Below are positions 8,172 through 41,911 of a stretch of DNA of 64,000 nt, one piece after another. The stretch's first letter is position 1. The number at the start of each line of letters is the position of its first letter. The translations under genes and the position numbers were made by a program. Below the pieces are notes generated by a model that worked only from the letters and a program-made list of their open reading frames with translations, was not told the DNA's origin and made no database searches. The stretch comes from Methylophaga thalassica MP (GTDB lineage: Bacteria; Pseudomonadota; Gammaproteobacteria; Nitrosococcales; Methylophagaceae), in NCBI RefSeq assembly GCF_000214595.1, contig NZ_AFIG01000001.1:1964382-2028381 (forward strand), written 5' to 3'.

Positions 8172-8984
8172 TTATGAATTTAACTGGAAAGCAATAGGCA
8201 CATTAACTTCGAGCTGAGACTGCGTCATATCATCAGGAAACGATGGCAGTGGCTGTGCTTTTTTTAACATGCTAATTACAGCTTCATCCAAACGTGCTGA
8301 ACCTGAACTTTTTGTAATACGAAACTCCAGCACCTTGCCGGTACGATCGACAATAAAAAAGAGTTTAACAATCCCTTCTTCACCACGACGCCTGGATGCC
8401 ATAGGGTAGCGCTTATGCTTAGCAAGCGTAGCAGCGAGTTCACTGTAATACGATTTCTGTGCAGCAATTTGACCACCACTCAATTGAGTACTAGCTTGGC
8501 CGGTAGTCTTTTTCTGTGATGTTTGTTTATTATCACTTGTGCTTGTTGTGCTACTGGCTACAGTGTGCTGTTTAACTGGCTTAACCGGCTCTACTTCTTT
8601 CTCAATTACCTCTTCAACCACTTTTTGTGGTTTAGGCTTCGGTTGTGCTTTTACTTTTGTTTCTGTTTTTTGTTTTGCTTCCACTTTTTTCGGCTCAATC
8701 ACCGGCTCAGGCTCAACAACAGGTTCAGGTTCCACTACGGGCTGAGGTTCAGGTTCTGGCTCTTTCTGTGGCTCCGGCTCTGGTTCGGTTTCAGTCGATT
8801 GTTCTTCCGTTTTCTCTACTTCACCAAGATCACCCAGCATACCGAGATCAATTTCTACTCCCTGCAATCCCTCAAGTTCAGCTCCATCATCGTCTTCAGC
8901 ATGATAAGTAAAGAAAGCAAAGCCTGCGGCGTGAATAGCAACCGCTATAAACAGCGCAAATATCCAATAACGATGTTTTGTCAT
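8172..8984 (-). CDS. tonB: Energy transducer TonB
   Basis: This 270-residue protein transmits proton-motive force from ExbB/ExbD to outer-membrane receptors. It has an N-terminal signal anchor (about residues 6-26), a long periplasmic linker (about 60-150) rich in Glu-Pro and Lys-Pro repeats, and a C-terminal TonB fold with RYPMASRRRGEEG and the ending NVPIAFQL. Its ATG overlaps the stop of the preceding exbD gene as ATGA. The repetitive linker produces long open frames on the opposite strand that are not genes. The operon position and upstream Fur box indicate a role in iron acquisition. Confidence 0.95.
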   Translation of the reverse strand: MTKHRYWIFALFIAVAIHAAGFAFFTYHAEDDDGAELEGLQGVEIDLGMLGDLGEVEKTEEQSTETEPEPEPQKEPEPEPQPVVEPEPVVEPEPVIEPKKVEAKQKTETKVKAQPKPKPQKVVEEVIEKEVEPVKPVKQHTVASSTTSTSDNKQTSQKKTTGQASTQLSGGQIAAQKSYYSELAATLAKHKRYPMASRRRGEEGIVKLFFIVDRTGKVLEFRITKSSGSARLDEAVISMLKKAQPLPSFPDDMTQSQLEVNVPIAFQLNS

Positions 8985-9408
8985 GACACTTCCGCTTGTT
9001 TTTGTGTGGCTAGTGAAACACGTTTAATACCTGACTGTTTGATAATCGATAATACGTACTGTAAGCGTTCGACAGGCAAACTGCCATCCACTTTGACTAA
9101 AATACGAAACTTGTCTTTATCTGCTGCAGCCTCAAATTGCTTGTTAATAACGGGTAATAATGCATTATCGTCCACAATGTCCTGCTCAATCGCTACTTGA
9201 CCATTGTCAGATACCACAATAACCAGAGGCTGCTCTATCTGTTTTGTCTCACTAGACGATAAAGGCGGTTGGACTTTAATTGGATCGGATTGACTGATAT
9301 GGCCTGCTACCATAAAAAAGATAAGCATTAAAAAACAATATTTATCAGTGGTACCAGACTATCATCCTGATCTGGTTTTTTATGTTGAATTGTTTGCGCG
9401 ACTTTCAT
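8981..9408 (-). pseudogene. exbD: Second ExbD-family protein, frameshifted at a T6 run
   Basis: The natural start is the ATG at 9408, which shares its A with the TGA stop of the upstream exbD. From there the frame encodes 26 residues that align with an ExbD N terminus (SLVPLINIVF), then hits TAA immediately after six T residues on the coding strand (A run at 9330-9335). One extra T would continue as LMLIFFMVAGHI and yield a normal 142-residue ExbD with a transmembrane helix and periplasmic domain. The break may be a true mutation, a sequencing error in a homopolymer, or a site of slippage. The stop overlaps a new ATG (TAATG), so re-initiation is also possible. The usual transmembrane Asp is Asn23. 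Confidence 0.82.
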
Positions 9409-9800
9409 CAGTTCACTCCAGCCAGACTGACTGATTTGGCACCAGCTTGTTTAAATGCATCCAGTAAATCAATCATTGTTTGCGTTTCAATACCTGATTT
9501 CACATCAATGACATACACGGCTTCAGGATCCTGTTTAACGACTGTCATAACAGAATCCATATCTTTAAGAGATAAGGTCATATTGCCGATTTTATATTTG
9601 CCGTCGTTAGATATCAGCGTTACCACACGCTGATCACGTGATTCAGACTGTGATTCACTCGGGGCCGATACGTCAATTTGGCGCCACTGAATAAAGGTGG
9701 ACGAGAGCATAAAAAATAATAGCAGAATGAACACAACATCAATCAGTGGTGTCAGACTAATCGCCCTTTTATGTCTTGGCTGTTCAGTATTAAGCAGCAT
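9408..9800 (-). CDS. exbD: ExbD/TolR-family biopolymer transport protein
   Basis: This ExbD-family protein of about 130 residues is part of the proton channel that energises TonB. It has one N-terminal membrane helix with the conserved proton-carrying Asp21 (SLTPLIDVVFILLLFFML), followed by a periplasmic domain. I place the start at the ATG at 9800, giving the usual short cytoplasmic N terminus with basic residues; this overlaps the exbB end by 11 bases. A longer frame to 9845 would add 15 hydrophobic residues inside exbB and is unlikely. The stop overlaps the start of the second exbD. Confidence 0.92.
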   Translation of the reverse strand: MLLNTEQPRHKRAISLTPLIDVVFILLLFFMLSSTFIQWRQIDVSAPSESQSESRDQRVVTLISNDGKYKIGNMTLSLKDMDSVMTVVKQDPEAVYVIDVKSGIETQTMIDLLDAFKQAGAKSVSLAGVN

Positions 9801-10626
9801 GGCGCATGGTTTTATTATCTGCAGAAACAGGCTGAGCACGTTCAACAGTAAAGATTTGTGTGACGGTGTCGTTCATTAATGCAGCGACACGTTCAACCTT
9901 ACGTTCCATCCAGTTATGTACAGTCACCACAGGAATAGCGACAGCAAGACCGACAGCAGTGGTCAACAATGCCTGCCAGATACCACCTGATAACACAGAA
10001 GGATCAACCTGATTTCCCGCTGCTTCCATTTGCTGAAAAGCTACGATCATTCCTAGTACAGTACCTAACAAACCTAATAATGGACTTAATGTGGCAATCA
10101 CTTCCAATGGTCGTAAATACGCACGTAATTGATTGAGACGAAGCGTTGCAACACGATCCAGCTCTTCTTTTAACGTGGCCAAATCCATTTTATGTTGTGT
10201 TAAACCACGAATAGAGATTAAGACTAACTCATCTACCGGACGTTTTGGATTGAGTCTCACCATGGCTTCAGCCGCATCACCTTTTTGCCAGTCACGAATC
10301 ACAGACTTGAGGTGTTTTGCAGACTCTGGACGCGTAGACATAAACTGCCAAAGTTTGATTAACACAATCGCTAAAGCGATAACCGAAAATCCCGTTAGAA
10401 TCCAGACAACCGGACCGCCAACATGCATGAATTCAGCAAATTGAGACATAAGCGCATCAGGTTGCTGCTGAGTTAAGGTACTGACATCCGTACCATTCAA
10501 TGCATCAGTTATCCCTGTAGTAACTGCACTTGGATCAGCATTGGCAGCAGAATCTACATTCGTTGCTGTGTCTGCACTATTGCCAATATTCTCTGCTGCA
10601 CTTACTGCGTCATTTTCTTGAGCCAT
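9790..10626 (-). CDS. exbB: ExbB/TolQ-family proton channel protein
   Basis: This 278-residue protein has the three transmembrane helices of the MotA/TolQ/ExbB family (first at about 75-97, then LLGLLGTVLGMIVAF and WQALLTTAVGLAVAIP). It forms the channel of the TonB motor with ExbD. The N-terminal extension of about 65 residues is rich in Ala, Asn, Asp and Thr and has no hydrophobic core, so it is probably a soluble periplasmic tail rather than a signal peptide. The start is supported by a strong GGGGGA site 3 bases upstream. It is the first gene of the operon, directly behind the promoter and Fur box. Confidence 0.94.
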   Translation of the reverse strand: MAQENDAVSAAENIGNSADTATNVDSAANADPSAVTTGITDALNGTDVSTLTQQQPDALMSQFAEFMHVGGPVVWILTGFSVIALAIVLIKLWQFMSTRPESAKHLKSVIRDWQKGDAAEAMVRLNPKRPVDELVLISIRGLTQHKMDLATLKEELDRVATLRLNQLRAYLRPLEVIATLSPLLGLLGTVLGMIVAFQQMEAAGNQVDPSVLSGGIWQALLTTAVGLAVAIPVVTVHNWMERKVERVAALMNDTVTQIFTVERAQPVSADNKTMRHAA

Positions 10627-10648: not shown

Positions 10649-10678
10649 AATGATAATCGTTATCATTTAGCTTATCAA
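10649..10678 (-). promoter_or_regulatory. Sigma-70 promoter overlapped by Fur box, exbB-tonB operon
   Basis: On the minus strand a -35 box TTGATA (10673-10678) and a -10 box TATCAT (10650-10655) are separated by exactly 17 bases. The spacer and -10 lie in the inverted repeat AATGATAATCGTTATCATT (10649-10667, plus-strand reading), which has 8-base arms and closely matches the Fur consensus. Fur with iron would block RNA polymerase here, so the operon should be induced by iron starvation. Regulation is inferred from the match and the operon content. Confidence 0.88.
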
Positions 10679-41851: not shown

Positions 41852-41880
41852 AAAAAAACAAAGCAGCTCTTCAGCTGCTC
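41852..41880 (-). terminator. Rho-independent terminator behind the ferredoxin gene
   Basis: The hairpin AGCAGCT-GAAG-AGCTGCT is followed on the minus strand by TTGTTTTTTT. It lies about 32 bases past the ferredoxin stop and isolates leuS from upstream transcription. Confidence 0.87.
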
Positions 41881-41911
41881 TATTTGATGTGACATTGGGT
41901 ATCAGCTTCAG

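Follow-up and report, generated by a model that had tools for sequence, protein, structure and literature searches.

The interrupted second exbD gene of Methylophaga thalassica MP, a marine, methanol-eating bacterium, appears from its sequence to belong to an old branch of ExbD, part of a nutrient-uptake motor, that is nearly always without the proton-carrying aspartate, and its broken reading frame is private to this one genome sequence. The gene (exbD2) lies in the 64,000-nucleotide stretch of DNA that was analysed, hereafter the window, where exbB, exbD1, exbD2 and tonB are closely spaced on the minus strand with overlapping ends (Table 1). The adjacency of exbB and tonB by which a TonB energizer operon is recognised is present in the window operon, and among 57 genome-contig loci ExbB is encoded upstream in 56, TonB downstream in 52 and both in 51. 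The window ExbB retains threonine in its GTVLGM and LTTAVGL segments, which we take, by eye, to match Thr148 and Thr181 of Escherichia coli. The palindrome ahead of exbB suggests putative iron control of the operon; we presume it to be Fur-box-like, and comparison of the region with a 19-mer Fur-box consensus gave no match.

Table 1. Features of the exbB-exbD1-exbD2-tonB region, in window coordinates.
Feature	Coordinates	Strand	Evidence
exbB, MotA/TolQ/ExbB family, 278 aa, intact	9790..10626	-	PF01618, 105.8 bits
exbD1, 130 aa, intact; PLIDVVF, Asp where E. coli has Asp25	9408..9800	-	PF02472, 77.7 bits
exbD2, frame-broken; intact 142-aa counterpart in same-species genome G022	8981..9408	-	
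T6 run (A6 on the plus strand), T7 in G022	9330..9335	-	
Premature TAA overlapping the ATG at 9328 (TAATG)	9328..9330	-	
AAT, Asn23 of ExbD2, aligned to Asp25 of E. coli ExbD	9340..9342	-	alignment to 6tyi
tonB-like gene of 270 aa, intact, overlapping the end of exbD2 at its start	8172..8984	-	PF03544, 60.4 bits
PepSY-associated TM protein, 407 aa	6911..8134	-	PF03929, 194.5 bits
Exact 8-3-8 palindrome AATGATAA-N3-TTATCATT, 22 bases upstream of exbB	10649..10667	.	1 match, 0.04 expected

The exbD2 frame begins at a TGATG on the minus strand in which the exbD1 stop (9410-9408) overlaps the exbD2 ATG (9408-9406), the coupling to the upstream exbD stop that a preliminary description of this DNA had proposed. 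From 9408 the frame reads MKVAQTIQHKKPDQDDSLVPLINIVF and is interrupted after 26 residues by a TAA (9330-9328) directly after six Ts (9335-9330), which that description had placed and described correctly. The ATG at 9328, rightly said to overlap the stop in the new frame, opens a 115-aa frame that runs to 8981, holds the conserved rest of exbD2 and matches the Pfam ExbD family (PF02472) with 57 bits against a cut-off of 25.4; the NCBIfam ExbD/TolR equivalogs fall below their curated cut-offs, the best being tolR with 42.6 against 127.3. The sequence past the break is still conserved, as had been claimed, and in G022, another genome of this species, the remainder of the gene is identical. G022 has seven Ts at the site and an open reading frame of exactly 142 aa, just the length that a seventh T had been predicted to give, and over the 2453 aligned columns that span exbB through tonB the two genomes differ, besides the missing T, only at a single SNP, which lies in exbB. 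The closest named relatives of this exbD2 come from Methylophaga. A gene for the second ExbD stands beside exbD1 in 12 other genomes of the genus, and all 12 copies are without an internal stop. The T run at the break site is 2 to 7 long both in these copies and in the 57 loci of the query-peptide scan, and falls short of seven in 53 of the 57. Six Ts followed by the stop were not seen in any of the relatives, whose frames are open. We rejected the idea that the G022 sequence is the erroneous one, the T7 frame being that of the family.

The same pair of genomes gives a measure of how unusual such a change is. This genome (3,261,960 bases in three contigs) and G022 differ by 59 indels over 464,397 aligned bases. 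One-base differences in A/T runs of five or more left the run shorter in this genome seven times and longer eight times, and since the differences go in both directions general under-calling of homopolymers in the assembly was not seen in this 464-kb alignment. Among 1002 open reading frames of at least 120 aa in G022, 672 were comparable, as were 675 of 821 in the reverse direction; 6/672 are frame-shifted here and whole in G022 (exbD2, mreB and four others), against 4/675 in reverse, and these six and four include doubtful cases, one apparently at a start codon, one locus that turns up as a pair, once in each direction, and one 23-base insertion. When only shorter runs are counted, 3 of the 1043 coding A/T runs of six or more in the 672 compared genes are shorter here (in exbD2, apparently just before a start, and in mreB) and 1040 are not shortened, while none of the four reverse frame shifts lies in an A/T run of six or more. 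Shortening of a coding A/T run is a rare event. The gene mreB, present once in this genome (G000 contig C1 280268-281252, loci L164/L163), breaks into two frames at an A6-TC-A6 stretch and forms a single frame in G022; the change is something other than the simple shortening of a run, and it may be genuine. Three further differences from G022 were observed. At window 50440 an A3 run is one A shorter than in G022, the longest open reading frame across the site being 394 aa here and 427 in G022; at window 41859-41889 two indels, one of +1 and one of -1, are separated by 30 bases; and a 2-base difference (L162 19110 vs L128 2717) alters the frame close to the beginning of an 879-aa G022 open reading frame, of which an 813-aa frame remains open here.

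Sequence error and a recent real mutation are inseparable on these letters, and we lean to error. The exbD2 stop is an isolated one-base T7 contraction in one genome sequence; that it is a homopolymer error remaining in the assembly has in our judgement slightly better than an even chance. This reading is favoured because G022 has T7 and the same operon but for one SNP, because the broken exbD2 has gathered no further change, and because three coding A/T runs of six or more are shorter here and none of the four reverse shifts falls in such a run. The broken mreB, whole in G022, weighs most as a sign of residual sequence error, because it is the only copy in this genome and mreB is rarely dispensable or lost in rod-shaped cells. 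The error reading is disfavoured by the A/T-run differences in both directions and the 1040 of 1043 coding runs left unshortened, and by an mreB change that is no plain contraction and may itself be genuine. If the stop is an error, the living strain would make a normal 142-aa Asn-type ExbD partner, which would work alongside ExbB, ExbD1 and TonB. The chance falls somewhat below even for a real and very recent replication slippage from T7 to T6 that would have knocked out exbD2 in an operon otherwise kept, with other TonB systems possibly covering the loss. Such an event is in keeping with the run-length differences between the two strains in both directions and the frame shifts both ways, and with the five other ExbD/TolR genes of the genome, all open; the exbD2 of Xanthomonas campestris is, moreover, unnecessary for iron uptake according to a part of PMC3551730. 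The broken single mreB, which points to sequence error, and the unchanged rest of exbD2 speak against it.

Of the preliminary choice between a recent break, an error and slippage, one missing T, recent or erroneous, stands by virtue of the T7 in G022, and slippage is unsupported, six Ts with a stop occurring in no relative. A bypass that yields a working product, whether by transcriptional slippage adding a U, a ribosomal -1 slip on UUU UAA or re-initiation at TAATG, is accordingly very improbable in our estimate. The letters would allow it, in that a -1 step would let the Phe tRNA pair with UUU again, and an ATG in the correct frame overlaps the stop. The stop after T6 is absent from relatives and the run lengths vary, so that no conserved, selected slippery element is apparent and programmed slippage is unsupported; a programmed frameshift gene was rejected as a candidate, neither the slippery site nor the shifted frame being conserved in relatives. 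A run of six is also short for slippage, selection against which is evident from nine in many genomes in the consulted text of PMC1088944, and the corresponding text of a transcriptome study (PMC5574713) gives no case of a frame restored by slippage. Re-initiation, proposed in the preliminary description, fares no better, as its product would have no cytoplasmic segment and only half a membrane helix. The break itself carries little weight, and annotators should call the gene neither dead nor programmed without a check of the reads.

What the preliminary description missed is that the second ExbD is a separate paralogue that has Asn in place of Asp25. In the alignment to 6tyi, Asp25 of the E. 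coli protein is matched by Asn23 of ExbD2, so the helix aspartate that serves as a criterion for ExbD/TolR (PF02472) is absent from the window protein. The window's own broken exbD2, present as several loci, was left out of the counts that follow. Among 97 tandem loci, which include copies of one locus present in two collections, the residues of the first and second ExbD are D/N in 94 and D/X, D/S and D/D in one each. Taken as distinct proteins, all 89 first ExbDs and all 47 single ExbD/TolR proteins have Asp, and the 88 second ExbDs comprise 85 with Asn and one each with Ser, Asp and X. The exceptions are L208, with Asp in both ExbDs, and L194, with Ser in the second; L045, with an internal TAG, and L093, with a run of N, were counted as pairs and left out of the tree. 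In that tree the 88 second ExbDs fall without exception into a single clade (support 0.92), an Asn-only grouping within it is weakly supported (0.22), and 86 of the 89 first ExbDs group together. ExbD2 is classed here as a divergent ExbD paralogue, neither a standard nor a spare ExbD. The internal TAG of L045 (at about 5160) is in the exbD2 of Marinobacterium nitratireducens, a genome that has a second, intact copy of the operon (L066).

These counts could reflect the way the loci were found. The peptides of the query scan came from the window, one from just past the Asn and none containing it, and the search of the class used an all-Asn profile; its 30 loci were this window, 18 other tandem loci (17 N, 1 S) and 11 single ones, all D. 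The search was repeated across the phylum with a first-ExbD profile as a control for this bias, and of the 30 loci returned 11 were tandem, including the window, the other ten having Asn in nine and Asp in one (L208). The rule of D first and N second is strong, not absolute.

The ExbD helix aspartate is believed to bind protons and let them go again, and a passage of PMC9008036 describes it as strictly conserved, a statement that does not hold for the second ExbDs (85/88 Asn). The open PMC papers, as far as their text was covered, contain no mention of the D-to-N change in second ExbDs. The window protein belongs to the same family as the ExbD of the E. coli ExbB5-ExbD2 motor (6tyi; a further ExbD structure is 7ajq), with the difference that E. 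coli has Asp at the aligned position and that its D25N mutant is inactive (PMC11658791, in part); MotB D22N is said in a section of PMC9389320 to mimic the protonated state. The sequences predict a TonB motor in which one ExbD can be protonated and the other has Asn, the two being placed in one motor because of their tandem order and co-occurrence. The operon would yield an ExbB ring in which the helix of ExbD1 carries the protons while its partner ExbD2 is unable to release one, and this assembly would drive TonB. As a tentative proposal, which we regard as somewhat more apt to fail than to hold, tandem operons may encode an asymmetric proton motor whose axle is an obligate ExbD1/ExbD2 heterodimer, with protons on ExbD1 only and the ExbD2 Asn silent, permanently mimicking the protonated state. 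Such a motor would use half the protons per turn and move in 72-degree, not 36-degree, steps, or would be a gated low-conductance form. The Asn-type clade is of greater consequence than the break. In current models of the Ton, Tol and Mot motors the two helices are equivalent and both bear Asp, and a D/N pair that nature has retained across Pseudomonadota may offer a ready test of how many protonatable residues are needed per turn.

Two known systems resemble the operon in gene arrangement. In the tonB-exbB-exbD1-exbD2 cluster of Xanthomonas campestris, as set out in part of PMC3551730, exbB, two tandem exbD genes and tonB likewise share one cluster, whereas tonB lies downstream in the Methylophaga operon; exbD2 is there called enigmatic, dispensable for iron uptake and needed for pectate lyase activity, a puzzle on which the Asn-type clade may bear. 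The Myxococcus AglR-AglQ-AglS system also has one MotA-like and two MotB-like genes, but AglQ and AglS are both said to carry Asp in the consulted section of PMC9389320, which states that formation of an AglQ/AglS heterodimer is unknown. In Myxococcus, deletion of an exbD2, likened to ours by gene name, resembled deletion of exbD1 in an excerpt of PMC6434023.
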